Assembly: GCA_963965975.1 (NCBI GenBank)
Contig: OZ014417.1
Location: forward strand, 7,064,821 to 7,128,820
Reading direction: 5' to 3'
Length of the DNA stretch: 64,000 nt
Source of the DNA: Xestospongia bergquistia
Taxonomy: Eukaryota > Porifera > Demospongiae > Haplosclerida > Petrosiidae
In this document: in pieces, positions 758 through 60,977 of the stretch
Layout: the number at the start of each line of letters is the position of its first letter
Numbering within the stretch: the stretch's first letter is position 1
Translations under genes and position numbers: made by a program
The notes under the pieces: generated by a model
Seen by the model: only the letters and a program-made list of their open reading frames with translations
What the model was told of the DNA's origin: nothing
Database searches by the model: none

Positions 758-2805
758 ATGTATCTTCACTATGTCTTTATTTTACTATGTTGTCTAAAAA
801 AAAGTATGGAAACTAATTGATTTTCCAAAGCTCTTAAATGCTTTATGATCTAGTTACTGGATGTGTTGAGGGAGAGCTCAGATTTGAGTCAAACAGCAGC
901 TCTCTAATACAGATTTGTGCTAAAGGACAATGGGGATATATTTGTGCTAATTATTATTACCAATGGAGTGAGGAAGAAGCCCAAGTTGCTTGTCAACTGA
1001 TGGGATATCAAAGTTTTAAAAAATTAGTTAGAGGTAAGAAACAAATGCATTTATGTTAAGATAACAAGATCAATTATAATATACTGATTTCAATTTAGGT
1101 GACTATAGAGTAAGAGATGCAGAAAAAAAAATAGTCAGTTATTCACATATCAAGTGCAAGGGTCTTGAACAACAAGTTACTCAATGTTATCTTAGAGAAA
1201 GTAATAATAAAAATGATTGCAAAAATGGTAATAATGGTAATTACTACTATGCTGCTACCATATGCCAAACTAGTTCTGGTAATACAAAGCTTTATAACTA
1301 AAATAATGACAAAACGGACTGTCTTCTTTAGGTTGTAAAGGTGGAAAATTATCCCTTAATGGAACACTACTTACAATTTGTGCATTTGGTCAATGGCACA
1401 CACTCTGTGGTAATACTTGGACATTAGGTCAGGCAAAAGTGGCTTGTAGGCAACTTGGAAGAAATCCTATTGGTATGATTCTTTGTATACATAATATGTT
1501 TATTTCTCAATAAAAACAAGGTGCTAACAACAGTATAATTGATGTTGCATTCTCTGCTGTTGATATTCAGTTCTATTGCAGTGGAAATGAGAATTCTCTT
1601 AGGAAATGCTCAGTGATTAATAATTATAAGTGTAGCTCACCAGGGAAAGCAGCAGAGCTTACATGTGGAGGTAGACAACTATAATTATGTAATAAAATTT
1701 ATGAAGTATATTAGAATGGCCCAGTCCACCTCACAATTTATCCATTCAATTACTGGAATCTTCAATACATATCTACTGGGAATATAATTATAGCAATCAC
1801 ATGATAAATGTTATCACTTTCAATGTATCCTGTAAAAACAGTGTACAACAAATTAAATACTGGTATTTCAATAACAGTACTTTTAATACATCTATTACTG
1901 GTCTATTACCTAATACTACATACACATGTTGTGTATTAACAGTAACATCATATAGAGAGAGTGAACCAGTATGTCAAAATATCACTACTACTAATTTAAA
2001 TACTACAACGAGTGAGTAAATAATAACATATAATCCTGAACAATATCTTTTTATGTCAATTGTATGTATGTACTATTTACACATAACAGATTATACCAAA
2101 GGTGTGTATTAACCTCATATCACCAAATCTGCTGTGTCAATAATAATTGTCATGTTGCTTTTATTATAACACAACCTACTAATGCAATAAGTGACATCAT
2201 AATGCACAGCTCTATTATTTTCAACTTATTTACTTGATGTTTGTAATCTACGTTTGCTCACATAGGTATCACTCCCATTACTAAAACTCAGACATCCACT
2301 AGTGGTGGTCCCTGGATAGGTGGTATATTGATAGGTATGATAAGTGGTATTCTTGTGATGGTTGTGGTATGGGTGATAGTGACATTGATTTGGAAAAGAA
2401 GAAGGAAAAAAGTGAATAACTCACAAAGATATCGTAACAGGTATGATGGCATGTTTATTGTGTCAAAATATTTATTTTCACTCTACATAGCAGTACTACT
2501 TCAAACGATATGGCTATGGAATGTTTAGGTAACCCCACATATGATGGACAAGTACATCAAATAACACTCATGATGTAACAGAACTACCTGAGGCCGAAGC
2601 TGACTATAGTTATGTACAGACACAACAAAATAAAGTATATGATTCTGTTAATAGTACTAGTATGGAAGGACCATCAACAAACCAAGATTCTACTGTTAAC
2701 AGTGGTGTCTGCTCTTATGATGAAGTTAACAATGTGAAAATTGAAGGAGTATACTCATTAGTTGAAGATGAAATTGAGACTTATTCAAAATTACAGAGAA
2801 AATAA
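758..2805 (+). pseudogene. Receptor A: SRCR-SRCR-FN3-TM-tail, frameshifted in the tail
   Basis: Exons by homology and splice sites: 758-803, 854-1033, 1099-1278, 1332-1472, 1521-1670, 1715-2011, 2266-2440, 2491-2805. Order: signal peptide (MYLHYVFILLCCLKK), two SRCR domains, an FN3 domain (motif TSITGLLPNTTYTCCV), a TM helix (GGILIGMISGILVMVVVWVI) with a basic stop-transfer RKRRRKK-like stretch, then a tail with NPTY. Compared with paralogue G (CATCAAAATAAC), this copy reads CATCAAATAAC at about 2555-2566. One A is missing, so translation stops at 2576-2578. The out-of-frame remainder still encodes a conserved tail ending YSLV-x6-YSKL, TAA at 2803. The lesion may be a recent null, a sequencing error in a short A run, or a truncated-tail allele. 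Transcription is not shown. Confidence 0.8.
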
Positions 2806-4869: not shown

Positions 4870-7179
4870 ATGTATCTACAATTTGTCTTTGTTTTATTTT
4901 GGTGGCTAGAACAAGGTATTGAATTTGGAAGATGATTTTGTATTTGAGAATGTTTGAGTAGTTGCTGGATGCGTTGAGGGAGAACTCAAATTTGAATCTA
5001 ATAGCAGACCTATATTACAGATTTGTACTGAAGGACAATGGGGATACATATGTGCCAAAAATGATTATCAGTGGAGTATAAAAGAAGCTCGAGTTGCTTG
5101 TCAACAAATGGGTAAAATAATCAAAAATAAAGGTAGATTAATTTTGAAACGTTTTGATGCTAATAAATATAAATACTCAGATATAACTTCAACTATTGGA
5201 TTTGATAGCATTTTAGAGACATGGTCAGTTAAGTATTCTCAATTTAAGTGCAGTGGTCTTGAGCAAAAAATTGTTAACTGCTATCACAAAATTAGTAATA
5301 ATGATACCAATGACTGTAAGAAAAATAATAATAAGTATTATTATGCAACTACATCATGTGAAAGTACTAATGGTAAGTAGTTTTTGTTAGTTCAGATAGT
5401 AATATCCATTTTTATTAGATTGTAAAGGTGGAGACATATCTCTTAATGGAACAATTCTTAAAATTTGTGCATTTGGTCAATGGCACACACTCTGTGGTAA
5501 TACTTGGACATTAGCTCAGGCAAAAGTAGCTTGTAGACAACTGGGAAGAAATCCAATGGGTATGGATGTTTAAGAAAGATATCAATGCATTTCTTTATAT
5601 TGTGGTGCTGTCAAAATAGCAACTAATTATACAATGAATGGTCAATATTATTAATAACAACTTTATATAAAATTGTGGATTCCATATTAATCTATCATAA
5701 CTTAATTTACAAATATCATGTGTGCTCATAACAACTTAATTTGCTTTTAAATTAATAAGGTGCTACAAACATGACACTTAGTCTTAATGTTCCAAATGAC
5801 TTTATTCGGTTTTATTGCAATGGAAATGAGAATTCTCTTCGTGACTGTTCAGTGGCTAATAACTATGACTGTCTCTCACCAGCTGTAGCAGCAGGACTCA
5901 CTTGTGGAGGTAATGACATTTTTATACAAAATATAAAGCAATCAAAATTTCAGAATGGCCTGATCCACCTCACAACTTATCAATCCAACAACTGGAATCT
6001 TCAGTACAACTCTATTGGGTATATAGTATCAACCACACAACTAATGTTACTGCTTTCAACATATCTTGTGAAAGTAAAACACAACAGAGCAAGTACTGGT
6101 ATTCTATTGAGGCAATACAGTATAACAATACTGTTAATACATCTATTACTGGTCTATTACCTAATACTACATACACATGTTGTGTATTAACAGTAACATC
6201 ATATGGAGAGAGTGAATCAGTATGTCAAAATATCACTACTACTAATTTAAACATCACAACAAGTGAGTTAATTATAATCCTGAACAATATGTGACCTTAT
6301 TTGAATAAGAACCATTTCTGGCAAAACATTTACGATCAAATTTGTGCTAAGGGACCACTGTTAAAACATCTCAAAAAACAGCTTTGTATACATACAATTA
6401 TCATGAATAGTTGTGTATATATAATAACTGTGTGTATACAAAGCTGTTTTTGAGATGTTTTAACAGTGGTCCCTATTCATAAATCAGAAACTAATCTTTA
6501 TTTCAAATCAGTACACATATCTTGCTATGTCAATTGTATGTAGGCCTATGTACTGTTTACACATAACAGCACAGCTCTATTATTTTTGAATTATTTACTT
6601 GATGTTTGTGATCTACATTTGCCCTCACAGGAATCAGCCCTATTACTAAAACTCAGACGTCTACTAGTAGTGGTCCCTGGATAGGTGGTATATTGATAGG
6701 CATGATAAGCGGTATTCTTGTTATGGTCATGGTATGGGTGATAGTGACATTGATTGGGAAAAAAAGGAGAAAGAAAGTGAATAACTCACAAAGATATCAT
6801 AACAGGTATGATGACATGTTTATCTTGTCAAAATATTTATTTTTATTTTCTTTTTTATTTATGCAGCTGTACTACATCACAAGATGCAACTATGGAAGGT
6901 TTAGGCAATGACACATATGGTGGACAAGTACATCAAAATAACAATCAGAATATAACAGAACTACCTGAGGCTGAAGCTGACTATAGTTATGCACAGACAC
7001 ATCAAAATACTGTATATGAGTCCGTTAATACTGGAATGGAAGGACAGGTAACAAACCAAGATTTTACTGTTAACAGCAGTATTTACTCTTATGATAAAGT
7101 TAACATTGTGAAAATTGAAGGAGTCCACTCATTAGCTCAAGATGAAATTGAGACTTATTCAAAATTACGGAGAAAATAA
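4870..7179 (+). CDS. Receptor B: intact SRCR-SRCR-FN3-TM receptor
   Basis: Exons 4870-4915, 4962-5111, 5181-5372, 5419-5559, 5760-5909, 5954-6262, 6631-6805 and 6867-7179 total 1476 bases (491 residues) with no stop. The signal peptide is MYLQFVFVLFWWLEQ. SRCR1 spans exons 2-3 (C-V-E-G-E-L, QIC, WGYICA, VACQQMG). SRCR2 spans exons 4-5 (CKGGD, WHTLCGNTW, ending LTCGG). FN3 is exon 6. The TM helix is in exon 7, and the tail in exon 8 has NDTY in place of NPTY, ADYSYAQ, VYESV and a final ETYSKLRRK. The upstream tyrosine of the terminal pair is His here (GVHSLA), so only one YxxL remains. It is probably a cell-surface recognition or adhesion receptor; the ligand is unknown. All extracellular introns are phase 1, the TM-tail intron phase 2. 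Intron 6 holds a mobile element (6291-6514). Confidence 0.85.
6291..6514. mobile_element. Composite inverted-repeat element (MITE-like), copy 1
   Basis: Outer arms: GTGACCTTATTTGAATAAG at 6291, inverted near 6498-6514. Inside lies a second palindromic element running from GGGACCACTGTTAAAACATC (6351) to GATGTTTTAACAGTGGTCCC (ending 6473). It sits in intron 6 of gene B. The paralogous intron of gene A (about 2038-2060) reads straight through from GAACAATAT to CTTTTTATGTC without it, which gives an empty site and suggests a short ATAT target duplication. No transposase is encoded, so it is non-autonomous. Confidence 0.8.
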
Positions 7180-9427: not shown

Positions 9428-12150
9428 ATGTATCTACAATTTGTCTTTGTTTTATTTTGGTGGCTAGAACAAGGTATTGAATTTGAAAGATGATTTTGTA
9501 TTTGAGAATGTTTGAGTAGTTGCTGGATGCGTTGAGGGTGAGCTCAAATTTGAATCTAACAGCAGACCTGTATTACAGATTTGTAGTGGAGGACAATGGG
9601 GATACATATGTGCCAAAAATGATTATCAGTGGAGTATAAAAGAAGCTCGAGTTGCTTGTCAACAAATGGGTAAAATAATCAAAAATACAGGTAGAGTTGA
9701 AACGTTTTGATACTAATAAATATAAATACTCAGGTATGTCTTCAAATATTGTATTTATTAGCAATTCAAAGAGACCTCCAGTTAAATATTCTCAATTTAA
9801 GTGCAGTGGTCTTGAGCAACAAATTGTTAACTGCTATCACAAAATTAGTAATAATGATACCAATGACTGTAAGAAAAATAATAAGTATTATTATGCAACT
9901 ACATCATGTGAAAGTACTAATGGTAAGTAGTTTTTGTTAGTTCAGATAGTAATATCCATTTTTATTAGATTGTAAAGGTGGAGACATATCTCTTAATGGA
10001 ACAATTCTTAAAATTTGTGCATTTGGTCAATGGCACACACTCTGTGGTAATACTTGGACATTAGCTCAGGCAAAAGTAGCTTGTAGACAACTGGGAAGAA
10101 ATCCAATGGGTATGGATGTTTAAGCAAGATATCAATGCATTTCTTTATATTGTGGTGCTGGCAACATAGCAACTAATTATACAATGAATGGTCAATATTA
10201 TTAATAACAACTTTATATAAAATTGTGGATTCCATATTAACTTATCATAACTTAATTTACAAATATCATGTGTGCTCATAACAACTTAATTTGCTTTAAT
10301 AAGGTGCTACAAACATGACACTTAGTCTTAATGTTCCAAACGACTTTATTCGATTTTATTGCAATGGAAATGAGAATTCTCTTCGTGACTGTTCAGTGGC
10401 TAATAACTATGACTGCAGCAGGACTCACTTGTGGATGTAATGACATTTTTATAAAAACTATAGAGTAATCAAAATTTCAGAATGGCCTCATCCACCTCAC
10501 AACTTATCAATCCAACAACTGGAATCTTCAATACAACTCTATTGGGTATATAGTATTAACCACAAAACTAATGTTACTGCTTTCAACATATCTTGTGAAA
10601 GTAAAACACAACAGAGCAAGTACTGGTATACTATTGAGACAACACACTATAACAATATTGTTAATACATCTATTACTGGTCTATTACCTAATACTACATA
10701 CACATGTTGTATATTAGCAGTAACATCATACGGAGAGAGTGAACCAGTATGTCAAAATATCACTACTGGTAATACAACAAGTTAGTTCTGTTGTTACACA
10801 TATTGTATTAATCATAGTGATACTTGTTATTTATTTCAATTATCAGGTCAAATATGTTCTTCTACTACTGTGACAGATGTATTCACTACTAGTGTCATCA
10901 AAACAACTGCTACAACAGTTACAATCATGACAACTGTTACTTCTAATACCATATCTCCATCTAGTAGTATCAATACAATAAAAACATATTGTCCTACTGG
11001 GAGTGGTGATACTAATGGTAGTTCATGGGTAGGTGGTATACTGGTGGGTGTAGTAATTGGTGTTCTTGTGATGGTGATGGTATGGGTGATAGTGACAATA
11101 GTCAAAAAGGAGAGGAGGAAAAAAATGGACAACACAATAACATATAACAATAGGTATGTTCAGAATTGTGTTTTATATATGTATAATTTACAAGAACAAG
11201 TTATATATATATATATAGTCATGTGAACATAACTTTATGCTAATAATGCAACATAGTATTTATATTGTTTCATATGTTGGTTTTTCAATAATAGTATGAA
11301 TTTTCTGTCATTTTTCAACTACTAATGCAATATGTACAGCTATACTAATACGTTTAATACATATATAAATACCCACAATGCTACAAACCTCATATTAGCT
11401 ATTATCTGCTGTTGTTATAACTGACTATACATTACAGTATGGTCATTTGATCTGGTATCATTATATCTGTGTTTTGTTAAATGTAATCCAAAAACAGGCC
11501 ACCACAGTAGTAATATGCAGTATATATACATGTGTAATATGTGTGTGTTGTTGTGACCTGATTTGCAATAAGGGACCACTTCTGTCAAAATATCTGTGAC
11601 CAGATTTATGAAAAGGGACCACTGTTAAAACACCAGAAAAAACAGTTTTGCATGCATACAGTTACCACAAACAGTTAGCTGTGCATATAGTAACTATATA
11701 GATACAAAACTGTTTTGGAGATGTTTTAAAAGTGGTCCCTTTTCATAAATCAGGGCACAAATTTTTATCAGAAGTTGTTCCTTATTGCAAATCAGGTCAT
11801 AATTATATTCATCATTATGTTAAGCATTTCTATGATATTTATATTTATATAGTTCTACTCCACAAATCTCGAACATAGAATGTTTATGTAACCCCGCATA
11901 TGATGGACTTGTACATCCTAATACCAATATTGAGCTTCCTGAAGCTGAGGCTACATACAGTTATGCTGTAATGCCACAGACTCACAAATATGATTCTATA
12001 ACTAATGTCACTGAGAAAAAACCAAGATTAAACCAAGATATTCCCATTAACACTGGTATATACTCTGTTGCTGAAAATGTCCAAATTGAAGGAATGTACT
12101 CATTAGCTAAAGACAAAATTGGCACATATTCAAAACTGAAGAGAAAATAA
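9428..12150 (+). pseudogene. Receptor C: chimeric copy with a 17-base deletion in SRCR2
   Basis: Exons: 9428-9473, 9520-9669, 9734-9922, 9969-10109, 10304-10436, 10481-10780, 10847-11153, 11853-12150. Exons 1-5 match gene B closely. Exons 7-8 match E/F: a Thr-rich stalk beginning SQICSSTTVTDVF, TM helix GGILVGVVIGVLVMVMVWVI, and a tail with NPAY, ATYSYAV and GMYSLA-x6-YSKL. Exon 5 lacks 17 bases relative to B, after 10415, and would meet a stop at the splice region. Exon 5 is phase 1 at both ends. Skipping it leaves 1431 bases in frame (476 residues), missing the second half of SRCR2. It could be a pseudogene or make a shortened receptor by exon skipping. RNA evidence is needed to decide. Confidence 0.75.
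11552..11801. mobile_element. Composite inverted-repeat element (MITE-like), copy 2
   Basis: Outer left arm TGTGACCTGATTTGCAATAA (11552), outer right arm TTATTGCAAATCAGGTCATA (ending 11801). The inner element begins TGTGACCAGATTTATGAAAA and ends in the inverse near 11760. This is the same nested design as copy 1. It lies in the TM-tail intron of gene C and is absent from the corresponding introns of E and F. Confidence 0.8.
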
Positions 12151-12445: not shown

Positions 12446-12755
12446 TTAATAAATTAGTTAGCTAGGTGTGTCTTAAATTTTTATAATTGGTGGAATAGTT
12501 ACCAGTATTATTACTAGTAGTATTATTACTGCTATTACAATGACAGGAATGTTCTTGTACTGTCAAAGATATCAATCTATGAAGAATAAAGTAAAATCCA
12601 CCACTCCAGAAGCCTCACCTCTTGTGATTTATTATGAACTTAATAGAGCTCATGATTCTGATTTCCCAGGATCTAATAATTCAGTTTATAGTCCAGCTAC
12701 TATTAAAAATGTAACTATTTATTTTTGGGTGCATTTTATTTCAGCTTTTATGTAA
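12446..12755 (+). pseudogene. Possible receptor 3' fragment (TM plus tyrosine tail)
   Basis: The open frame from about 12484 reads a hydrophobic Ile/Thr-rich stretch (IIGGIVTSIITSSIITAITM), then FLYCQRYQSMKNK and a polar segment with VIYYELNRA and NSVYSPATI, ending at 12755. This looks like a TM exon and a short tail with ITIM-like tyrosines, but no acceptor, signal or ectodomain was found. The preceding 45 bases (TTAGTTAGCTAGGTGTGTCT) recur at 19005-19045 downstream of E, so this may sit in a shared 3' flank. Confidence 0.3.
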
Positions 12756-16595: not shown

Positions 16596-18849
16596 ATGAA
16601 TCTTGAAGTTTTTTTGGTTCTACTGTGCTCAATGTCTTGTTTACAACAAGGTAATGAAAGTATTAGCATGTGGTAATAATTAAAACTTTTGATCAGTTAT
16701 CACTGGAGATGTTAAGACACAAACTCCAGGAAATAGCCATATATTGCCATTTTGTTCCAGAAAATATATTTGTATTGAGAATGTCTGTCATTCAAGTAAG
16801 AGGAGATCAATCAGAGCTGTTTGCTTTGTTATTTCATACTGTTCTAAAGTCAAATCATGGCAACTAAATAAGCATTCATACATTATTGACATAAGTATAT
16901 GTAAATTTACAATTTGTGTACATCTATATGTCATAGTATAATGCTACAAGCAGCCAAAAGAATAGTCTCATACCCAGGTGTTTCAGTAAAGGAAATAGTG
17001 CAAGGCTTCAAAAGGGCTGTGATAAAAAATTTTATAGAAAAATACTATCTTCCTATAGATTGTACATGTGGAGACTTAATGTTAACAAATGAATCAGTTC
17101 TTACTATATGTTCATCAAATGGTGAACAGTACACATTCTCTGGTCATTGTTGGACATTAGCAGAGGCAAAAATAGCTTGTACACAACTTGCATATTGTTT
17201 TAATCAGTGTAATGTTCAATTCTGTTGTAATGGGAATGTGAATTCTCTCAAAAATTGTTTGATGGCAGGACTCAATTGCAGAGGTATATTATTTGTTCTA
17301 TATGTAATAACAATCAAAAACCATTAAAGATTGGCCCAGTCCATACAATTTATCTATACAACAACTGGAATCTTCAATACAGCTCAGCTGGCAATACAAC
17401 ATCAACCGCACAAATAACATGGTACTAATGTTTAATATATCATGTGAAAGTAAACAACAACAGATCAGCCATGTTTATTCTAAGACAATACTATATAATA
17501 ATGATAGTACTTTTAATACATTTATTACTGGTCTATTACCTAATACTATATACAACTGCTGTGTATTAGCAGTAACATCAAATGGAAAGAGTGGACCAAT
17601 ATGTGAAAATATCAATATAACTGGTAATACAACAAGTGAGTTTGTTCTTGTTACAACTACTATATTAATCTATAATGATACTTTGTTATTTATTTTTCTT
17701 ATCAGGTCAAATTTGTTCCTCTACTACTGTGACAGATGTATTCACTACTAGTGTCATCAAAACAACTTCTACAACAGTTACAATCATGACAACTGTTACT
17801 TCTCTTACTATATCTCCATCCTCTAATATCAATACAATAAAAACACTTTGTCCTACTGGTAGTATGACAATTGTTACTACTGTAACCATATCTCCATCCT
17901 CTAATATCAATACAATAAAAACACTTTGTCCTGCTGGGAGTAGTGATACATTTACTAATGGTAGTTCATGGGTGGGTGGTATATTGGTGGGTGTGGTAAT
18001 TGGTGTTCTTGTGATGGTGATGGTATGGGTGATAGTGACAATAGTTAGGAAGAAGAGGAGGAAAATGGTGGACAACATAATAACATATAATAATAGGTAT
18101 GTTCAGAATTATGTTTTGTATGTATGTAATTTACAAGAACAAGTTATATGTACAAAGAATGCATACTTTATGTTAATAATTAGACATAGTAATTACTTTG
18201 CTACATACGTTGCTATTTCATTAAAAATATGAACTTTCAGTAACTTTTTAAAGCACTAATGTAATAAGTTGACTGCTACAGCTGCACTAACAGTTTAATG
18301 TGTATATAAATAACCACAATGCTACAAACCTCATATTAGCTATTGTCATGTATACACTGTCATTATCACTAACTATACATTATAGTATGGCCATGGTATC
18401 ATTATATTTGTGTTATTTTAAATGCAATCCAAAAACAAGCCACCACAGTAGTAATATACAGTATATAAACATGTATGAAATACACACACACACACACATA
18501 TATATATATACACATCATTATGTTAAGCATTTATATGATATTTTTATTTAAAATTAATGGTTCCACTTCACAAACATCAAACAGAGAAGGTTTAGGTAAC
18601 CCTACATATGATGGACTTGTACATCCTCTTACCAATATGGAGCTGCCTGAAGCTGAGGCTACATATAGTTATGCTGTAATGCCACAGACTCACAAATATG
18701 ATACCGTAACTAATATCACTGAGGAAAGACCAAGGGTAAACCTAGATATTCCCATTAACAGTGGTATCTACTCTCCTGCTGAAAATATCGAAATTGAAGG
18801 AGTAGCTGAAGATGAAATTGGTACATATTCAAAGCTCCAGAGAAAATAA
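16596..18849 (+). pseudogene. Receptor E: single-SRCR copy with lost tail splice acceptor
   Basis: Exon 1 is 16596-16650 (signal peptide MNLEVFLVLLCSMSCLQQ). The SRCR exon (17059-17283) is one continuous exon in which the two halves are fused and shortened (CTCGDLMLTN, CWTLAEAKIAC, QFCCNGNVNS, AGLNCRG). FN3 is 17330-17635. The stalk/TM exon (17706-18096) contains an internal duplication of TISPSSNINTIKTLCP. The tail exon ends at 18849 with NPTY, ATYSYAV, YDTV and GTYSKLQRK. The SRCR1 module is absent. The expected tail acceptor reads AATGG|TT at about 18559 where twin F has AATAG|TT. An in-frame AG about 23 bases downstream (AACAG|A) could rescue splicing with loss of about eight residues. 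Possibly functional with an altered junction. Confidence 0.65.
17055..18768 (+). repeat. Recent duplication, source-type copy (E)
   Basis: Matches 19573-21288 at an offset of 2518 (2520 after a TA-repeat difference). By eye I find only about three substitutions in the aligned 1.7 kb: the acceptor A/G, CTT/ATT, and CTA/CAA. The two copies are therefore very recent, gene-converted, or an assembly artefact. Confidence 0.85.
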
Positions 18850-19436
18850 TTTTATAATATATAGTCTATTAATTCTGTCATTGTATTAAAACGTTTTACT
18901 ATTACAAGTTATAAGTAAATTATTAAATGAGCAATTGTATTCAATTAGTTTTGTAATTAGTTTAATTTTATTATTACAGTCACAATATTGATAATTTTTG
19001 GCTAATAAATTAGTTAGCTAGGTGTGTCTTAAAATTTATAATTCATTAGCATTTATTAGATGTTTTGGGAAAGGAGGAAATATTGTTTAAGACTTTTTAG
19101 ATTGCAATGTAATGTAAATATACTCTGTCTTGAATCTCGCCTATGTCAACAACAATATTTGTGAAGACTTATACCTGTATGAGACTAGACGTTGAATTGT
19201 ATCATGTCCATAGTAATAGTAACACAACATATATTCATTATTTAGTTTATAGATATAGTTGCCTCTGTTGAACAAGACTTCAGTTTGTACTAGTATTACA
19301 GTTCACATATGCAGGTAAATTTATTTTGAGAATTAATTACAGAACTTTACTTTCATACATCACTGACATATCTATTTATATAACAACATTTAAACAACAA
19401 AAAAGTTAAGACAGACCTTTTGAGAGTGTTTTGTAG
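18850..19436. other. 3' flank of E and start of the G-type flank
   Basis: 18850-19045 matches the region downstream of gene C (12151-12490). From about 19146 the sequence matches the 5' flank of gene A. No gene is seen. Confidence 0.5.
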
Positions 19437-19551
19437 CTTCAACTACATCACAGTTGTGAGTTGTCCTTATAAAAAAAAACATTTTGATAGATTAATTCAA
19501 GCTGTTACCATTATAGTTATGTAACTATGATGTAACCATGATGTAACCATG
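19437..19551 (+). repeat. 115-base direct repeat, left of F
   Basis: Nearly identical to 21288-21402 (one C/T difference seen). The two copies bracket the F duplicate, with 21 filler bases (19552-19572) on the left side. The block belongs to the G promoter flank and also resembles about 563-680 upstream of A. Confidence 0.85.
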
Positions 19552-19572
19552 CATCATTGTAACCATGTAACC

Positions 19573-20999
19573 ATAGATTGTACATGTGGAGACTTAATGT
19601 TAACAAATGAATCAGTTCTTACTATATGTTCATCAAATGGTGAACAGTACACATTCTCTGGTCATTGTTGGACATTAGCAGAGGCAAAAATAGCTTGTAC
19701 ACAACTTGCATATTGTTTTAATCAGTGTAATGTTCAATTCTGTTGTAATGGGAATGTGAATTCTCTCAAAAATTGTTTGATGGCAGGACTCAATTGCAGA
19801 GGTATATTATTTGTTCTATATGTAATAACAATCAAAAACCATTAAAGATTGGCCCAGTCCATACAATTTATCTATACAACAACTGGAATCTTCAATACAG
19901 CTCAGCTGGCAATACAACATCAACCGCACAAATAACATGGTACTAATGTTTAATATATCATGTGAAAGTAAACAACAACAGATCAGCCATGTTTATTCTA
20001 AGACAATACTATATAATAATGATAGTACTTTTAATACATTTATTACTGGTCTATTACCTAATACTATATACAACTGCTGTGTATTAGCAGTAACATCAAA
20101 TGGAAAGAGTGGACCAATATGTGAAAATATCAATATAACTGGTAATACAACAAGTGAGTTTGTTCTTGTTACAACTACTATATTAATCTATAATGATACT
20201 TTGTTATTTATTTTTCTTATCAGGTCAAATTTGTTCCTCTACTACTGTGACAGATGTATTCACTACTAGTGTCATCAAAACAACTTCTACAACAGTTACA
20301 ATCATGACAACTGTTACTTCTCTTACTATATCTCCATCCTCTAATATCAATACAATAAAAACACTTTGTCCTACTGGTAGTATGACAATTGTTACTACTG
20401 TAACCATATCTCCATCCTCTAATATCAATACAATAAAAACACTTTGTCCTGCTGGGAGTAGTGATACATTTACTAATGGTAGTTCATGGGTGGGTGGTAT
20501 ATTGGTGGGTGTGGTAATTGGTGTTCTTGTGATGGTGATGGTATGGGTGATAGTGACAATAGTTAGGAAGAAGAGGAGGAAAATGGTGGACAACATAATA
20601 ACATATAATAATAGGTATGTTCAGAATTATGTTTTGTATGTATGTAATTTACAAGAACAAGTTATATGTACAAAGAATGCATACTTTATGTTAATAATTA
20701 GACATAGTAATTACTTTGCTACATACGTTGCTATTTCATTAAAAATATGAACTTTCAGTAACTTTTTAAAGCACTAATGTAATAAGTTGACTGCTACAGC
20801 TGCACTAACAGTTTAATGTGTATATAAATAACCACAATGCTACAAACCTCATATTAGCTATTGTCATGTATACACTGTCATTATCACTAACTATACATTA
20901 TAGTATGGCCATGGTATCATTATATTTGTGTTATTTTAAATGCAATCCAAAAACAAGCCACCACAGTAGTAATATACAGTATATAAACATGTATGAAAT

Positions 21000-21030
<31 letters not shown>

Positions 21031-21375
21031 CACATCATTATGTTAAGCATTTATATGATATTTTTATTTAAAATTAATAGTTCCACTTCACAAACATCAA
21101 ACAGAGAAGGTTTAGGTAACCCTACATATGATGGACTTGTACATCCTATTACCAATATGGAGCTGCCTGAAGCTGAGGCTACATATAGTTATGCTGTAAT
21201 GCCACAGACTCACAAATATGATACCGTAACTAATATCACTGAGGAAAGACCAAGGGTAAACCAAGATATTCCCATTAACAGTGGTATCTTCAACTACATC
21301 ACAGTTGTGAGTTGTCCTTATAAAAAAAAACATTTTGATAGATTAATTCAAGCTGTTACCATTATAGTTATGTAA
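19573..21375 (+). pseudogene. Receptor F: promoterless twin of E with truncated tail
   Basis: SRCR exon 19577-19801, FN3 19848-20153, stalk/TM 20224-20614, tail from about 21081. The SRCR, FN3 and stalk/TM proteins are identical to E as far as I can read. F lacks exon 1, so it has no signal peptide of its own; the preceding ATG at 19549 is fortuitous. The tail acceptor AATAG is intact, unlike E. The tail is cut after IPINSGI at 21288, where the sequence joins the G flank and reads on to a chance stop at about 21373. The terminal YSKL motif is lost. It is a duplicated insert, probably not an independent gene. Confidence 0.8.
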
Positions 21376-21492: not shown

Positions 21493-23554
21493 ATGTATCT
21501 TCACTATGTCTTTATTTTACTATGTTGTTTTAAAAAAAGTATGGAAACTAATTGATTTTTCAAAGCTCCTTAAATACTTTATAATCTAGTTATTGGATGT
21601 GTTGAGGGAGAGCTCAGATTTTTTGAGTCAAACAACAGCTCTCTAATACAGATTTGTACTACAGGAAAATGGGGATATATTTGTGCTAAGTACAATTATA
21701 ATTGGAGTAAAATAGAGGCTCAAGTTGCTTGTCAATTGATGGGATATTTGAGCAGTAGTTTATACAATGATGGTAGGAATGCTAATGCATTTATGCTAGG
21801 ACTACAAGATCAATTATAATATACTGATTTCAATTTAGGTGACTATAAAGTAGATCTGAAAAATACAGCTAAAATACCAGTCAGTTATTCACATATCAAA
21901 TGTAAGGGTCTTGAACAAAACATTACTCAATGTTATCTTAGAGAAAGTAACAATGAAAATAGCTGCAAAATTGTTGATGAAAATTCTTACTACTATGCCA
22001 CTACCAAATGCCAAAACATTTCTGGTAATATAAGGCTTTAAATTAAGAGTATTACAAAACTGACTGTCTTCTTTAGGTTCTAAAGGTGGAGAATTATCTC
22101 TTAATGGAACACTACTTACAATTTGTGCATTTGGTCAATGGCACACACTCTGTGGTAATATTTGGACATTAGCTCAGGCAAAAGTAGCTTGTAGACAACT
22201 GGGAAGAAATCCAATTGGTAAGATTTTTATACACATGAAATATTTATTTCTCAACAAAAACAAGGTGCTAACAACAGTGTAATCAACACTGAAGTATTAT
22301 CTACTGTTGATATTCAGTTCTATTGTAATGGAAATGAGAATTCTCTTAGGAAATGCTCAGTTATTAATAATTATTACTGTACCTCACCAGGGAAAGCAGC
22401 AGGACTTACATGTGGAGGTAGACAATTACAATTTTGTAATAAAAATTTATGAAGTATATTAGAATGGCCCAGTCCACCTCACAATTTATCCATTCAATTA
22501 CTGGAATCTTCACTACATATCTACTGGGAATAAAATTATAACAACCACATGATAAATGTTATCACTTTCAATATATCCTGTGAAAACAGTGTACAACAAA
22601 TTAAATACTGGTATTTCAATAACAGTACTTTTAATACATCTATTACTGGTCTATTACCTAATACTACATACACATGTTGTGTATTAGCAGTAACATCATA
22701 TGGAGAGAGTGAACCAATATGTAAAAATATCACAACTAGTAGTTTAAATACTACAATGAGTAAGTTAATAATAACATATAATCCTGAACAATATCTTACT
22801 ACGTCAATTGTATGTATGTACTATTTACACATAACAGATTATACTGAAGGTGTGTATTAGCCTCATATCACCAAATCTGCTGTGTCAATAATAATTGTCA
22901 TGTTGCTTTTATAATAACACAACCTACTAATGCAATAAGTGACATCATAATGCACAGCTCTATTATTTTAAACTTATTTACTTGATGTTTGTAATCTACG
23001 TTTGCTCACATAGGTATCACTCCCATTACTAAAACTCAGACATCCACTAGTGGTGGTCCCTGGATAGGTGGTATATTGATAGGTATGATAAGTAGTATTC
23101 TTATGATGGTTGTGGTATGGGTGATAGTGACATTGATTTGGAAAAGAAGAAGGAAGAAAGTGAATAACTCACAAAGATATCATAACAGGTATGATAGCAT
23201 GTTTATCTTGTCAAAACATTTATTTTCACTGTACACAGCAGTACTACGTCAAACAATATGGCTATGGAATGTTTAGGTAACCCCACATATGATGGACAAG
23301 TACATCAAAATAACACTCATGATGTAACAGAACTACCTGAGGCTGAAGCTGACTATAGTTATGTACAGACACAACAAAATAATGTATATGATTCTGTTAA
23401 TAGTACTAGTATGGAAGGACCAGCAACAAACCAAGATTCTACTGTTAACAGTGATGTCTGCTCTTATGATGAAGTTAACAATGTGAAAATTGAAGGAGTA
23501 TACTCATTAGTTGAAGATGAAATTGAGACTTATTCAAAATTACAGAGAAAATAA
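21493..23554 (+). pseudogene. Receptor G: paralogue of A with in-frame stop in FN3
   Basis: Exons: 21493-21538, 21590-21772, 21839-22024, 22077-22217, 22265-22417, 22463-22759, 23014-23188, 23239-23554, total 1497 bases. Order as in A. The FN3 exon reads TGG GAA TAA at 22525-22533 where A reads TGG GAA TAT. One substitution therefore ends the protein after both SRCR domains, predicting a secreted two-SRCR product if translated. Downstream, the TM and tail are otherwise intact, with NPTY, ADYSYVQ, VYDSV and GVYSLV-x6-YSKLQRK. The first cysteine of SRCR2 is Ser (GSKGGE instead of GCKGGE). Recently disabled gene, or one making a soluble form. Confidence 0.8.
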
Positions 23555-25799: not shown

Positions 25800-28033
25800 A
25801 TGTATCTACAATTTGTCTTTGTTTTATTTTGCTGGCTAGAACAAGGTATTGAATTTGGAAGATGATTTTGTATTTGAGAATGTTTGAGTAGTTGCTGGAT
25901 GCGTTGAGGGAGAACTCAAATTTGAATCTGATAGCAGACCTATACAGATTTGTAGTGGAGGACAATGGGGATACATTTGTGCTAAAAATGATTATCAGTG
26001 GAGTATAAAAGAAGCTCAAGTTGCTTGTCAACAGATGGGTAAAAGAAGTAAAAGTACAGGTAGAGTTGAAACATTTTGATGTTAATATTATATATATAAA
26101 TACTCAGGTATGACTACAAAACGTAAAAAATCATCAAACAAATTGTCAGTTGGATATTCTCATTTTAAGTGCAATGGTCTTGAACAGCAAATTGTTAACT
26201 GCTATCACAAAATTAGTAACGATGCTGATGACTGCAAGCTTAAGAAAGATGATATGTATTATTATGCAGCTACATCATGTGATAATAATATTGGTAAATA
26301 ATTTTTGTTAGTTTAGATAGTATAATCCATTTTTTATTAGATTGTAAAGGTGGAGAATTATCTCTTGATGGAAAAGTTATTAAAATCTGTGCATTTGGTC
26401 AATGGCACACACTCTGTGGTAATACTTGGACATTAGCTCAGGCAAAAGTAGCTTGTAGACAACTAGGAAGAAATCCAATTGGTATGAATGTCTAAAAAAG
26501 AAATCAATGCATATATTTATATTATGGTGCTGGCAACATAGTAACCAATTATACAATGAATGGTCATACTATTAATAACAATTAACTTTATATAAAATTG
26601 TGGATTCCATATTAATCTACCATAACTTAGTTTATAAATATCATGTGTCTTTGTAACAACTTAATTTGCTTTCTTATAATGAGGTGCTATAAACATGACA
26701 CTTGATCTTAATGTTCCAAATGACTTTTTACGGTTTCATTGCAATGGAAATGAGGATTCTCTTCATGATTGCTCAGTGGCTAATAAGTATGACTGTCCCT
26801 CAGATATAGCAGCAGGACTCACTTGTGGAGGTAATGACATTTTTATGCAAAATATAAAGTAATCAAAATTTCAGAATGGCCTAATCCACCTCACAACTTA
26901 TCAATCCAACAACTGGAATCTTCAATACAACTCTATTGGGTATATAGTATCAAACACAAAACTAATGTTATTGCTTTCAACATATCTTGTGAGAGTAAAA
27001 CACAACAGAGCAACTACTGGTATTCTATTGAGGCAATACAATATAACAATACTGTTAATACATCTATTACTGGTCTATTACCTAATACTACATACACATG
27101 TTGTGTATTAGCAGTAACATTATATGGAGAGAGTGAACCAATATGTCAAAACATCACTACTGTTACTATTAATACAACAAGTTAGTCTAAAATTATTGTC
27201 TTAAAGTATGTTATATGATCTTTTAATGTTTATTCAGGTGATATCTGCTCTGAAGTTGTATCCAGTGTTGTGACAACTGTTACTACTACTACCATAGCAC
27301 AGACTAATAATGAAACCTGTGAGATTTCTATATATCCTCATTGTTTTTGTTTGAAATGATTCACTCATTATTGTTTATACAGTTATGACCTGCTCTTCTA
27401 CTGATATCAAAACATCCAGTGTTGTTGCCATGACAACTGTTACTCCTGTTACCATACCTACCCCTATTGAAAGTAGTGATACAATCAATAGTGGTGGTCT
27501 GTGGGCAGTAGGTGGTATAATAGTGGGTGTAGTGAGTGGTGTTCTTGTGACAGTAGTAGTATGGGTACTAGTAGTAGTTGTTAGGAAATACAGAAACAAA
27601 AAAGTGGACAACACTATAAAATATCATAACAGGTAATCTTATGGTGGCATGTTTACATTCTTTCTCCTTGTCAAAACATGTAATTGATTTCATTTTCCAT
27701 ATATGCAGCTGTACTACATCACAAGATACAGCTATGGAAGGTTTAGGTAATCCCACATATGGTGGACAAGTACATCAAAAGAACAATTATGACATAACAG
27801 AACTACCTGAGGCTGAGGCACAATATAGTTATGCAGTATTGCCACAGACACACCACAATAATGTAAATGATTCTGTTAATGGTACTGGTATAGAAGGACC
27901 ATCAACAAACCAAGGTTCTACTGTTAACAATGGTATATACTCTTATGCTGAAGTTAACAATGAAAAAATTGAAGGAGTGTATTCATTAGCTGAAGATGAA
28001 ATTGAGACTTATTCAAAATTACAAAGAAAATAA
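25800..28033 (+). CDS. Receptor H: intact SRCR-SRCR-FN3-TM receptor with ITAM-like tail
   Basis: Exons 25800-25845, 25892-26038, 26108-26293, 26341-26481, 26684-26830, 26875-27180, 27238-27318, 27383-27632 and 27709-28033 sum to 1629 bases (542 residues), no stop. The signal peptide is MYLQFVFVLFCWLEQ. Two SRCR domains and an FN3 domain follow, as in B. A longer Thr/Val-rich stalk is split over two exons (TTVTTTTIAQ, then VAMTTVTPVTIPTP). The TM helix is GGIIVGVVSGVLVTVVVWVL, then RKYRNKK. The tail carries NPTY, AQYSYAV, IYSYAEV and a final GVYSLAEDEIETYSKLQRK. It is the best-preserved A-H member. Ligand, adaptor and expression are unknown; a role in self/non-self or microbial recognition is inferred from SRCR family knowledge. 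Confidence 0.87.
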
Positions 28034-33400: not shown

Positions 33401-35060
33401 TGGACTTATTTTTAGTATTATAATGGTAACCATTGTGGGTACACTAATATGTTGTGTGGTCATTCTTAAAAGAAGGAAGAAGAGACAGATATGGAAAACA
33501 AGGTAATATTAAAAAATATATATTATAGATGGATGACCAAGCAGAAAATGGACAGATAGATGGTTGAATGAATGGATAGACAAACAAATGGATTGATGAA
33601 TAAATGATATAAGATATACATACATATATATATATATATATATGTCACTGGGAAAATTTATTGGTTGCACTATTTGGTTATACAGGTTGTAATCATAAAC
33701 TAAAAAGTAAACATAACACTGTTTGATTACTAATGTCCACTGGTTATGTACATACATAAATATTCTATTTCAAAGTAATATTATGTTTACTTTTTACATC
33801 AAAAAAGTTTCCTATGTGTGTTTCTTATGTGGCTACATAACCATCAATTTCATAGTACATAAGTAATTAAATATAGTATTATGTCTACATTGCAACTAGT
33901 ATAACTATATGTTAGTTAGTTAAGTCAACTAATCAATTTTCACAGTGGTGCATGCAGTATTATAAAATGTTATATAATAAAAGAAACTAAAATATAATTC
34001 CATATATGCTTAATTTAATTTTAATTACAGAGCTCATGACACAGGTTTAGTACTAAGTAATCCCAATTATGAAGCCCCTCCAATTAACGTCATTATTGAC
34101 AGTAATATCGACCATGAACAATCCTCAAGCCAATCAAGAACTCATAGCCAAGATGAAGATATTGTCAGTAATATATCAAGAAGCCCACCTAATCATCCAA
34201 ATGAATCTTCGCTGCAAGATTCTGGTAACCAAACAATGGACGAAGTAGAATATACTTATGCTAGACCACAAAAGTTAACCAAGACACCTAATAACAGTCC
34301 AAGTTCTGTGAACCCCTCCCCATTACAAACATCCTTAATCTCAGACTATAGTGTTCCAATTGATACCACTCCTACTGAATACCTAGCTCCATTTACCAAA
34401 AAAGGAATAGGTACTAAAGTAATCAATGTTTATGATGATGTTGTAGTAACAGAAGATGTTTATGATAGTGTTGCAACTGAAAAAGAAAAGAAACCAAAAT
34501 TAAAGTCTCAATTAAACACCAAACGAGGCATTAACAGTTCGACCAATAATTCAAAAAACAAAGATGTACCTCCTGTTTCAAGAAAACCATTAGTTTCTCC
34601 TCAAAATTCTCATAGAGTTAGCTCTCCTATTGAGATTGGGTCACTACCTGCAGAACATGTTCGAATTACACCAAAAATCAGTCTGCCAATAATGGTTGGC
34701 TCAACAGATGAGGACTACTCAAAACAGAGGCACTACAAGTTTTCACCACAAAGTAGTAATGGTAGTAGTAGTCCACTATCAAGTCATTCTGTTACAGAAG
34801 ACACTAATACACATTCTCTATTAAAGAACACACAACCTATAAAGATACCAGGACGATACAGTCCCCGTCCTTCTGAGAAGAAATGGCCTGATAGTGAACC
34901 ACCAACAGGATCACACAAGGAACAATTTCTGTCTTCATCCAATCCCAGTGACCAATTTTTTAATATTCTACCTTCACATGACCCTGTGTATTCTTTGGTG
35001 GAATCTCCTGATCAGACAACAGAGAATGAAGATGACATATATTCATACCCTACACCATAA
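30444..35060 (+). CDS. Receptor I: SRCR-SRCR-FN3-TM with long tyrosine-rich tail
   Basis: Exons 30444-30510, 30563-30748, 30932-31090, 31200-31355, 31414-31563, 32516-32836, 33307-33502 and 34031-35060 total 2265 bases (754 residues). Signal peptide MRYIPSLLIVICCWCVWS. SRCR1: exons 2-3; SRCR2: exons 4-5 (KHGELRRQSPNGILEFCDRG, WSVICGDFWTD). FN3 is exon 6 (WPLNSTAIAATW). The TM helix in exon 7 is LIFSIIMVTIVGTLICCVVI, then KRRKKR. The tail is about 340 residues: NPNY near its start, EYTYARP, VYDDV, VYDSV, Pro/Ser-rich runs with PxxP, and a terminal VYSLVESPDQ...DDIYSYP. Intron 5 holds a long TTTTAG-type repeat. It probably docks SH2/PTB and SH3 adaptors. Diverged from A-H but with the same exon plan. 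Confidence 0.85.
31905..32490. repeat. Degenerate TTTTAG/TTATAG repeat block
   Basis: The intron between the SRCR2 and FN3 exons of gene I is filled with irregular GTTTTAGTTTTAGTTATAGT units in several clusters. It resembles an expanded hexamer satellite, all in one orientation. Confidence 0.8.
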
Positions 35061-35494: not shown

Positions 35495-38121
35495 ATGGGT
35501 TTGTTAAATACTCTGTTGATGTACTGCTTCATGTGGATATCTATCTCAGTATCAAGTTATGGTTAGTTATCTAATATACAGTCTATTCTCTTTACTCACT
35601 TATAGTACATGCTTCATGTACAGAGGGAGATTTAAGGCTAAGAGACATATCAGTAAATACAAGTACAGCTATCAGAGGTAGAGTACAGATATGTATTGGT
35701 GATAGATGGACTGGAATATGTCGTCGTCGTAATGGAAACTCAAGATTTTGGAATGACAATGATGCTCGCATAGCTTGTAAACAAATGGGATATACAACAG
35801 CTGGTAACTATATCATGTCAATTTTAGAAGTTAATGTGAAAAATAATTCAATAGGTGTTACTCCTAGAAGTTTTTCCCATTCTAGTGTATTATTATTTAA
35901 TGTTATCTGCTATGGGTATGAAGGTAAACTAGTGGAATGCTATACTTTATTCCGTAATCCTTCATCTTCATGCACCGAAGATGCAGGTGTGCAATGTAGT
36001 AAACAAGGTATCAACAATTAATGATGCCCAGAGATGACTTCTCTCTTTATTATCATAGTGTTATCATGTACTCAAGGTGATATCAGAAACAATAGCATTG
36101 GAATCCTAGAATATTGCAATGCTGGTACATGGAACAATATTTGTGCAGACTACTGGACTAATACTCATGCTACTGTAGCTTGTAAGCAATTAGGATATTC
36201 AAATCAAGGTCAGTTTATTGATTACTGGAAATTAATTTCATGACAACATTCTTAATTAGGAGCTGAAATAGCAGCTGTTCAACTAAATCCTTCCTCTTAT
36301 TTTCGTGGTCACTTTTATTGTTCTGGTAGAGAAGAAAAACTAGATGACTGCTTTAAAGGCAGTATACAATCTCAATACACATGTCAAAGTCTACCAAGAC
36401 TATTTTGTAAGTATTATCTGACATTCAAACATTCAAATTATTGATTGCTTATCATTATATACCAATTAAGGTATTCCCCAATCACCAAAGATATTTTTTA
36501 TATGGCCTCTTAACTCAACTACAATAATGGCAAAGTGGCAGCTCTTCTATCCAAATCAAGATATTGCTACTCACCTAAATATTACATGTTTTAATACAAA
36601 TGATAATGAAGACAATATTATATTTACAATATCAGATCCTATACTAACCACACAAGAGATATCTATTACTGGATTTACTGCCAGTACCAAATACACATGT
36701 TGTATTACTGTTAGTAGTAACATTGGAACAAGTCAAAATGTCTGTCAAAATGTTACTTTACTAAACAATGTGGAACAAGGTAAAATAAAATTGTCACTAT
36801 ATGAACCACTCTCCAAGTACAACTGACAAACAGTCTTTATAACCTGTCATACCCACCTGTGTATACTTAAATCTATACACAACAGTAATAATGTCCTATT
36901 ACATTTGTACATAAGTAATAAATTAATGTCAACACATGCCACGTTTGATAATTTTGACATATACATACTTTTATCACAGTTTGTTTTCCATCTGTAGTTC
37001 CAATTACTTTAGTTTTTAAATAATATTGCAATCTGACTTAATACAACACCCAAAAATGCTCTTAATTAATTATTTTATAACCATATTATAGCAAGGCTTT
37101 ACTCTGTCACTAGCCATAAACACACCACATACAGCTAAACTAATGTTTCATAAAAATTGCATTGATAACATAAAGTTATTTCTCCTTATAGTATCATGTA
37201 CTCAATGTCCTACAGTAACACAATGTGAACACTCAATGACAATTACCATATATCAAAGTCAAACAGAAATAACTCCATCTGTAACTAGTCAACAAATTAT
37301 AACTGAGTCTGTAATACCAGCACCTAATGTTGAAGAGAGAGATGTAGTATCTCCTATCATTGGAGGAGTTATAGGATTTGCCCTTGGAGTGACTACAGTT
37401 GTCATAATATGGATTATAACCATGTGCATTTTGTCATCTCTTAGGAGAGAGAAGATGAACTTAAAATTTAATGATAATAATCAATATACTACAAGGTAAA
37501 GTCAGTATATATACGCTCCACTCCATTCCATTCCATGCAGAATGAGTTGATATATAACTCTCCTTTCTATACAGGGAAGCTGCATCAGATAATGTCCTAA
37601 GCAATCCTACTTATGGAGGTGTCCCCTCTTTTCATCACATTACTAAACATTGTATTGCAAGTTCAATGAACAATGATACTAATATATATGACTCTACTGA
37701 TCAAAATGGATTCAAAAATAAAGAGTATTCATACACTACAATCAACGGGAATGCAGAACGTCTCACCGAAACTGAGAACCTTTATGAAATGGAAGAAGTA
37801 AATGATTACTTAGTTCCAACTACCACTTTAAAACGTACAGAGGTGTCAAGTGCTCCTGAAGATACAGATGTGTATTCCACTGTAGATACAATACAAGGCA
37901 ATAAACTAGTACCAAAGAAACCAGTTCTTCCAAAGGAGTCTAATGAATCTACCACATTGCTATCAGTTAATCCTTTACTTCCCACATCTACTAGTGATGG
38001 TCAACACTCTCAGCTAGCATCAATTCGAACAAGTCAACAACCCCTTATCTCCAGTGACGAAGAGGGACAAGGAGAAGGACCAGATGTTTACAATGACATT
38101 TACTCTGTTGTTGACAATTGA
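35495..38121 (+). CDS. Receptor J: SRCR-SRCR-FN3-TM with multi-tyrosine tail
   Basis: Exons 35495-35561, 35606-36007, 36059-36208, 36260-36406, 36471-36779, 37192-37495 and 37575-38121 total 1926 bases (641 residues). Start chosen at 35495 (MGLLNTLLMYCFMWISIS) because it gives a good signal peptide; a shorter start lies at 35519. SRCR1 is one exon here (intron lost relative to I). SRCR2: exons 3-4; FN3: exon 5 (WPLNSTTIMAKW). The TM helix is VIGFALGVTTVVIIWIITMC. The tail has NPTY close to the membrane, then NIYDST, EYSYTTI, NLYEMEEV, DYLVP, DVYSTV and a terminal VYNDIYSVV. The spacing suggests several SH2-binding sites. Sister of I by FN3 and SRCR sequence. Confidence 0.85.
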
Positions 38122-60267: not shown

Positions 60268-60740
60268 ACAAAATTGGCTAATATTATGATAGTTTTCTCA
60301 AACATGTACAACATATACAGGTGTTATTTTGTATGAATAAACCATTACAATAATTATAGTGCATTATATTATAATTAATTGGTGCATGCCAAATTTATAT
60401 ATGAACAAAAACAGTGAGCACAGACTGAAAAGTTGTCATTAAAATAAACAGTTATATTACATAGTGATGGATAATGAAATTGTATTAAACTACCATGTTG
60501 CACGATGCGTCAAGAACATTAAAAGTGTTTGTATAAATTGAAACTTCCATTCTTACATCATTGTAATTGTACCTCTGATATCTGTAAAAAATATTTTGGC
60601 CCTACTATACACTTTTGCCTCGATCTGTTCAACAACAATACATTATTACAAAGTCTTACATATTTAAGACATTGTACACTCCTAAATATGTACTACACTA
60701 TACAAGTTCCCACCCACTCAACTAATGAGACCACACTTAC
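60268..60740. other. Spacer between SLC13 copies
   Basis: 3' flank of SLC13 copy 1, then from about 60607 the start of duplication unit 2 (equivalent to BRIP1 intron 1 sequence). No gene seen. Confidence 0.5.
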
Positions 60741-60896
60741 TTTAGACATCATCTGGAATTGTGTTGAGTATGGTTTGAATGGGAACCGAACTGGTACGCC
60801 AGATATAGGATATGTCTCATGTTTATGTTTCACATATTCAACATCTGATATGGTACTAGGTTTTATTTTTACAGATATTTGACTGGTTTGGTCCAT
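60741..60896 (-). pseudogene. Orphan duplicate of BRIP1 exon 1
   Basis: Encodes the same 52 residues as BRIP1 exon 1 ([14 protein letters not shown] through FQMMSK) with an intact GTAAGT donor. No second BRIP1 exon follows on the minus strand before the SLC13 copy 1 gene. It lies upstream of BRIP1 in the same orientation, so it could only contribute by long-range splicing to exon 2 at 54596. Confidence 0.88.
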
Positions 60897-60977
60897 CTTC
60901 AAAAGATAGAAGGCGCGGCAATTGTCTTATAGGCGTGGCTCAAGCTTGTTCACTACAAGTTGGTTTTGTAGTAAGTG
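60897..60977. promoter_or_regulatory. Duplicate of the bidirectional promoter
   Basis: Near-identical copy of 55446-55526 between the orphan BRIP1 exon and the second SLC13 start. Confidence 0.5.

Follow-up and report, generated by a model that had tools for sequence, protein, structure and literature searches.

CED-1, the engulfment receptor of the worm, binds CED-6 through an NPXY motif without phosphorylation, and in the parts of the source available the reader of its YXXL motif is NCK-1 and not Syk. Work on Draper argues, in the sections available, for an origin of Src–ITAM–Syk signalling in an ancient response to damage (PMC4503800). Mammals are already known to have SRCR receptors whose YxxL/I motif signals, WC1 being an example (PMC2906472, in part), and SRCR expansions and SRCR–FN3 combinations are already known in sponges: from the available portions of the two papers, Amphimedon has 296 SRCR genes (PMC10855680) and Halichondria more than 600 SRCRs, some of them with FN3 (PMC8242945). 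With hundreds of such receptors in sponges (PMC10855680, PMC8242945), a conserved tail code would be a testable handle from which adaptors, kinases and a role in uptake could be predicted. The words ITAM and tyrosine do not occur in the main text of PMC10855680. A search of the literature, mostly beyond subscription journals, gave no title, among the matches listed, on tyrosine motifs in sponge SRCR tails, nor one on NPxY combined with a terminal YxxL in an SRCR–FN3 family. To our knowledge, the downstream wiring of sponge SRCR receptors is little known.

The window considered here, i.e. the whole stretch of 64,000 nucleotides that was analysed, is part of contig C7 of a genome of 146 Mb in 21 contigs, in which at least 163 SRCR matches were counted. 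It holds a tandem row of receptor genes, of which gene H is one member, with the following features:

25888..26301, + strand, first SRCR domain of H in two exons (from the open reading frames; Pfam SRCR 17.8 bits on the second exon, below the cut-off)
26341..26838, + strand, second SRCR domain of H in two exons (Pfam SRCR 32.6 bits on the first exon, cut-off 26.1; 20.2 bits on the second)
26889..27182, + strand, fibronectin type III domain of H (Pfam fn3, E 9.4e-9)
27505..27582, + strand, transmembrane segment of H (hydrophobic run judged by eye)
27709..28033, + strand, tail exon of H, cytoplasmic tail and stop (exon join, open frame, tail homologues)
27749..27760, + strand, NPTY of H within L-G-N-P-T-Y, phi-x-NPxY of the PTB/endocytic type (Asn and Tyr invariant in the 13 rows of alignment A1)
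27980..27991, + strand, first C-terminal tyrosine motif of H, YSLA (from sequence; across the family the Tyr is lost in 7/24 tails and +3 is never L/I)
28010..28021, + strand, terminal YSKL (YxxL) of H (from sequence; across the family Tyr in 20/20 and Leu in 16/20 retained ends)

The preceding exon ends at 27632 and the first base after the acceptor is 27709, so that the last coding exon runs from 27709 to 28033; once the transmembrane and tail exons are joined, the frame is open from the transmembrane segment to the stop and reads LGNPTYGGQVHQ, LPEAEAQYSYAV and IYSYAEVNNEKIEGVYSLAEDEIETYSKLQRK, the C-terminal end of the protein being GVYSLAEDEIETYSKLQRK. Membership of the SRCR superfamily is given by the second SRCR domain of H and by the open reading frame of paralogue B that corresponds to the first SRCR domain of H, which scores 34.8 bits, above the cut-off. 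No EMI or EGF domain was found in the six H open reading frames scanned with Pfam, which gave SRCR, fn3 and otherwise sub-threshold matches. From this architecture, family members are predicted type I surface receptors with two SRCR domains, one FN3 domain, a transmembrane segment and a tail of ~120 residues. The other tails of the row, and those of two neighbouring receptors, are as follows:

2491..2805, + strand, tail exon of gene A, frameshifted after 2558, NPTY in frame and YSKL out of frame (exon join, comparison with G and H)
6867..7179, + strand, tail exon of gene B, with NDTY, HSLA and YSKL (tail search, exon join)
11872..12150, + strand, tail of gene C, with NPAY, YSLA and YSKL (tail search, sequence)
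18580..18849, + strand, tail of gene E, with NPTY, YSL deleted, YSKL (sequence; GG at the acceptor, 18559-18560)
21100..21375, + strand, tail of gene F, NPTY kept, other sequence in place of the C-terminal end (sequence)
23239..23554, + strand, tail exon of gene G, NPTY ... YSLV ... YSKL (sequence, exon join)
34041..35060, + strand, tail of neighbouring receptor X1, LSNPNY ... YSLV ... YSYP (SRCR open reading frame 20.0 bits, below the cut-off)
37585..38121, + strand, tail of neighbouring receptor X2, LSNPTY ... YNDIYSVV (SRCR open reading frame 47.6 bits)

The sequence-only reading had described the tails of A, C, G and H as ending in YSL[VA]-x6-YSKL, with the first Tyr changed to His in B and YSL missing from E. 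This is what C, G and H have, and B and E differ as described while keeping YSKL; the acidic residues noted before YSKL in H also precede it in G and A. Gene A was misjudged as an intact YSKL tail and is ruled out as one by a deletion: compared with G and H, it lacks one base just after window position 2558, because of which YSKL is out of frame and the tail, joined to the transmembrane exon of A itself, is truncated soon after NPTY, ending in NPTYDGQVHQITLMM. Neither this frameshift nor the conserved NPxY had been noted in the sequence-only reading. In E the frame is kept, with GG at 18559-18560 where F and the copy just upstream of the window have an acceptor AG; an in-frame AG a few bases downstream could replace it. 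The C-terminal end of F has been lost to sequence that is also present near window positions 584 and 19449. E and F appear to be tandem units that are nearly identical to each other (window 16905-21375), and the end of the F tail is probably a duplication breakpoint.

Two further features of the region may be mentioned. A second, short transmembrane–tail cassette, possibly an alternative last exon, lies at window 12477-12755, downstream of several SRCR–FN3 units; copies outside the window, at C7:7036163, 7039916 and 7045069, have YDEL or YCDEV followed by NPAY, and at C7:7018818 a main tail begins and then passes into the NPAY end of the cassette, as a fused form. From window 56000-64000 and onwards along C7 there are tandem genes resembling a sodium/sulphate or citrate-type symporter, of which the one open reading frame scanned scored slightly under the CitMHS cut-off.

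A search of the genome with the tail gave three more close copies, at C7:7064110, C7:3072299 and C7:3066441. A second, divergent subfamily lies upstream on C7, with 53-59% identity to H in near-full-length FN3 matches. Its tails are homologous to those of the main family but diverged: they carry NP[ST]Y close to the membrane, then LPEA-x-Y and EG[VIM]YSL, and most of them finish in Y-N-[QH]-L-Q-R-N or Y-D-H-L, so that these ends read YN[QH]L or YDHL. In all, 26 family tails, complete or partial, were assembled, the fetched ones being u1-u12 and L44-L47 and the close outside copies D0, R1 and R2; with three neighbouring receptors these make up the set of 29 tails used for motif counts, which includes the out-of-frame end of A and whose members are not independent because their ancestry is common. 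Divergent tails were sought with one subfamily member as query, and four of the resulting places were left out of the 26: C7:7018818, where a tail start that keeps NPSY is fused to another ending with no terminal YxxL; C7:7049958, which has an internal stop and reads NPKY, YSLV and YNHL; C7:3079484/3079612 (3079484-3079767), which has frameshifts and reads NPTF and YSKF; and a weak match at C1:8859484 (E 1.87). NPxY was counted over 23 tails, A, u6 and u12 being left out as their frames were read short of the NPxY region; the ends of A and u6 are counted among the 20 retained ends despite their broken upstream frames. Copies that are damaged or missing one element comprise A, E, F, u1-u4, u6-u9, L46 and L47. 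Locus L028, read with stops as X, matched no Pfam family. A separate group of multi-FN3 receptors with short tails on C10 (4955624-4959000, 5008826-5012300 and 5129449-5132900; L049-L051) was searched for a terminal YxxL-type end, which is absent from these three stretches; their tails are instead rich in Y-x-x-P (YDVP, YDFP, YDLP).

The sequence-only reading proposed that the two C-terminal tyrosines form an ITAM with an unusual first half, or equally well a hemITAM, and held that the proposal would fall if other paralogues did not conserve the terminal motif. They do: among tails retaining their end the terminal Tyr is kept in 20/20 and the +3 Leu in 16/20, the end having been lost in six of the 26. 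A conserved tyrosine motif thus closes these SRCR tails, and it is the assignment to the ITAM class that does not stand. Of the 24 tails that include the site of the first C-terminal Tyr, 17 retain it, the other seven having His, Asn, Cys or a deletion, and in those 17 its +3 residue is Ala (8), Val (5), Pro (2) or Asn (2), never Leu or Ile. The strict form, Yxx[LI]-x6-12-Yxx[LI], occurs in one of the 29 tails (R2), at another place and formed by other tyrosines; shuffles of nine tails give it at 0.007-0.057 per tail, so there is no enrichment. A classical ITAM was rejected on the +3 residues and on the retention of the first tyrosine, 17/24 against 20/20 for the second. A hemITAM has the form [DE]n-G-YxxL, and the strict form, with acidic residues, Gly and YxxL, was likewise rejected, being found in 0/29 tails.

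An imperfect ITAM, in which both C-terminal tyrosines would be phosphorylated and bound together by the tandem SH2 domains of Syk, could draw on the presence of a Tyr 10-15 residues before the terminal YxxL in 12/29 tails and on a Syk-family gene in this genome with FLVR in both SH2 exons. The ITAM-like motif of CD5 has an imperfect first half. CD5, a mammalian SRCR receptor, is described as having this ITAM-like motif (PMC8158487, in the part available). Set against the +3 residues, the seven losses of the first tyrosine beside none of the second in tails that retain the end, and the single strict match elsewhere, this explanation appears unlikely.

What does stand out, by the shuffle frequencies that the ITAM fails to exceed, is a pair of other elements. 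YxxL/I at most eight residues from the end is present in 18/29 tails, against 0.04-0.11 per tail in shuffles of nine tails, and phi-x-NPxY, the form of the NPxY signal for PTB domains and endocytosis, in 20/29 including X1 and X2, against 0.002-0.013. The wiring of the tail therefore looks more like that of engulfing or internalising receptors than like a classical two-tyrosine immune motif, as far as can be judged from these motifs.

Seven columns do not vary in alignment A1 of 13 tails, among them the two that hold Asn and Tyr of NPxY and the one with the Tyr of the terminal YxxL. The two subfamilies (branch support 100/100) have a common tail plan and different middle residues. Over a set of 11 rows, the codon of the terminal Leu is TTA (4), CTC (3), CTG (1) or TTG (1), two rows being without Leu, and that of the terminal Tyr is TAT (9) or TAC (2), and so the residues are held as their codons drift. 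The NPxY Tyr is TAT in 11/11 rows, and the Ser-Leu after the first tyrosine is TCA and TTA in all 10 rows that have it, so these sites tell little of selection at the protein level. The EG[VIM]YSL core (e.g. window 27974-27988), with its uniform TCA/TTA against the drifting terminal Leu, is possibly subject to conversion or possibly a nucleotide-level element.

Of the 18 pairs for which dN/dS was computed, 16 gave values of 0.34-1.06, and the near-identical pairs E–D0 and R1–R2 gave 1.42 and 1.28. Over the last 25 columns there is a clear synonymous excess in some main-family pairs (H–G, H–R2), with 3 in 13 sites against 1 in 53 for H–G; it is absent in B–G and in second-subfamily pairs, e.g. 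u1–u2 (1 in 12.2 against 7 in 53.8). Taking the 3' flank as a neutral baseline gave a mixed outcome: for H–C the flank is 49% alike and the last 75 bases 80%, for H–R2 there is no contrast (flank 87%, tail end 89%), and for C–E the flank (88%) exceeds the end (69%), where the YSL deletion sits. It is conceivable that the likeness of the ends is residual, left by recent duplication and gene conversion with no function kept in the end, as the dN/dS of the near-identical pairs and the frequent damage to the ends would allow; the synonymous drift of Leu and Tyr codons, with the residues kept across subfamilies that differ at most tail sites, makes this the most improbable of the explanations considered.

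Of the 23 family tails counted, 18 retain NPxY, a signal of the PTB or endocytic kind. Both NPxY and the terminal YxxL, the tail plan of CED-1, Draper and MEGF10, are present in 8/23, and one of the two in the other 15 (NPxY alone in 10, YxxL alone in 5); none of the 23 has neither. The damaged copy at C7:3079484-3079767, outside the 23, has neither canonical form, with NPTF and YSKF. On a tree of 21 tails seven label changes are needed, and related copies have like states. The apparently complementary loss of the two elements is suggestive only, because related copies share states and one damaged copy is without both.

The genome also contains candidate partners for such tails. An SH2 search gave 81 matches. 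A C5 locus has two SH2 exons, in both of which FLVR can be read and whose best PDB hits are SYK (8e-38) and ZAP-70 (2e-39), with tyrosine-kinase exons adjoining. A Syk-family kinase is already known from a sponge, Amphimedon (PMC9601881, in the part available). An exon on C9 joins an SH2 domain to ankyrin repeats and looks like the start of a Shark-like protein; a candidate open reading frame for the kinase part at this locus matched no Pfam family. Ten SH2 matches are clustered at C6:1.62-1.70 Mb, where the one scanned has SH2 and kinase domains and is closest to Fgr and Src, and for an SH2–kinase open reading frame at another place on C6 the closest match is Src (1e-122). The genome thus holds a Syk/ZAP-70-family gene and Src-type kinases, in line with the sequence-only reading. 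The closest matches of a PTB protein encoded on C7 are the LDL receptor adaptor (1e-10) and, next, GULP1 (1.5e-6). Nine pairs of tandem SH2 domains, at a spacing of 318-366 bases, lie on C3, C6 and C7, with a tyrosine phosphatase domain in 4/4 scanned:

C3:1266387-1283528, C3:916188, C6:199640 and C7:8319015 (L036-L038, L048), tandem-SH2 loci of SHP-2 type, six of the nine in one C3 cluster

Humans have two SHP genes, and by this comparison, made with human alone, nine loci are an expansion. These loci would suit an inhibitory, ITIM-like tail that recruits SHP-2-like phosphatases. The ITIM form is [SIVL]xYxx[LIV]; it is found in 6/29 tails, all of the divergent subfamily (SLYNQL, SPYNQL, SLYDHL etc.), and shuffles produce it by chance in 0.19-0.37 of tails. 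No YSKL tail fits, because the -2 residue is E, G or K, and we regard this explanation as very unlikely.

The main rival is a plain endocytic receptor, in which YSKL and YNQL would be Yxx-phi signals read by AP-2 independently of phosphorylation and NPxY a signal for clathrin adaptors, the outcome being internalisation and recycling only. Yxx-phi is a Tyr with a bulky hydrophobic residue at +3 in a cytoplasmic tail, a form that YSKL and YNQL have and that even the YSKF of the damaged copy keeps. The terminal Leu in 16/20 retained ends fits it too, and this is weak evidence because shuffles give Yxx-phi somewhere in 0.60-0.89 of tails. YSKL has a basic +2 residue, which AP-2 signals show more often than SH2 ligands do. 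The 20/29 tails with phi-x-NPxY, two neighbours among them, and the LDL receptor adaptor as the best PDB match of the PTB protein fit this rival as well. The YREM motif of CD163A has an endocytic role. CD163A, a mammalian SRCR receptor, carries this YREM according to the available part of PMC2906472. For endocytosis alone the further tyrosine motifs of the tails (PEAxY, IYSYAEV) would be superfluous, as would the co-occurring Src, Syk and SHP-2 set, although constraint on the tyrosine is expected equally. Both YxxL and NPxY are short motifs that would equally suit endocytosis independent of phosphorylation, which on sequence grounds accounts for the tails nearly as well as two arms would; we consider it a plausible explanation, though less likely than not.

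We favour, at close to even odds (about 0.48), an uptake receptor with two tail arms, in which the SRCR tails couple ligand binding both to uptake and to phosphotyrosine signalling, as in CED-1, Draper and MEGF10. The sequences show the two tail elements and how they are conserved, and the genome encodes a Syk-family kinase, Src-type kinases, SHP-2-like phosphatases and a PTB protein resembling ARH/GULP; phosphorylation, binding partners, uptake and expression of the tails are what we infer from them, and to call the family 'immune-type' or 'signalling' is to interpret. Clustering of ligand by the SRCR domains would lead Src-family kinases to phosphorylate the terminal YxxL, which might then recruit an SH2 protein, i.e. 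Syk, a Shark-like protein or a Nck-type adaptor. The membrane-proximal phi-x-NPxY would recruit a PTB adaptor of the ARH/GULP (CED-6) kind and so bring about internalisation, and SHP-2-like phosphatases would remove the phosphate mark. The first YSL[VA] tyrosine would be optional and may give a second docking site in some copies. In effect, a tail working like those of engulfment receptors would be joined to an unrelated SRCR ectodomain.

A bolder version, which we think doubtful, is that an expanded SRCR family in a probable sponge independently acquired the whole engulfment wiring, with NPxY and terminal YxxL, Src, Syk/Shark and PTB readers and expanded SHP-2-like erasers; working paralogues would lose one arm and never both, and the family would therefore split into internalising and signalling forms. 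An engulfment-type tail on early-animal SRCR receptors would bear on the origin of phosphotyrosine immune signalling; if the tails serve AP-2 endocytosis only, the result is an ordinary one.

As to how these tails compare with known systems, the sponges Amphimedon and Halichondria have large SRCR sets as here, described in PMC10855680 and PMC8242945, which in the parts seen contain no tail analysis. Among cnidarians and tunicates, ITIM, hemITAM and ITAM motifs have already been described in the allorecognition receptors Alr of Hydractinia and fuhc of Botryllus, whose ectodomains are other than SRCR (PMC12065747, in part). CD5 and CD6, lymphocyte co-receptors, are SRCR receptors with an ITAM-like tail motif (PMC8158487, in part), likened to the present family by description only. 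WC1 and CD163c-alpha share with it a conserved Y-x-x-[IL] tail motif, the phosphorylation of which is required in WC1; unlike the tails here, their motif has acidic or Gln residues at +1/+2, and the available part of the paper mentions no NPxY (PMC2906472). The tails of Draper and MEGF10 combine NPxY with an ITAM read by Syk and Shark (PMC8092387, in part), whereas there is no ITAM here. The ectodomains of CED-1, Draper and MEGF10 are of EMI/EGF type and those here SRCR–SRCR–FN3, the tails being likened by motif plan alone. In those engulfment systems, as far as the sources were available, Src-family kinases are the writers, Syk and Shark the readers, CED-6/GULP serves NPxY and Corkscrew (SHP-2) is the eraser for Draper, and similar genes are present in this genome. 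CED-1, in the available account, has NPxY and one YxxL at the tail end, the same plan as in the SRCR tails described here.
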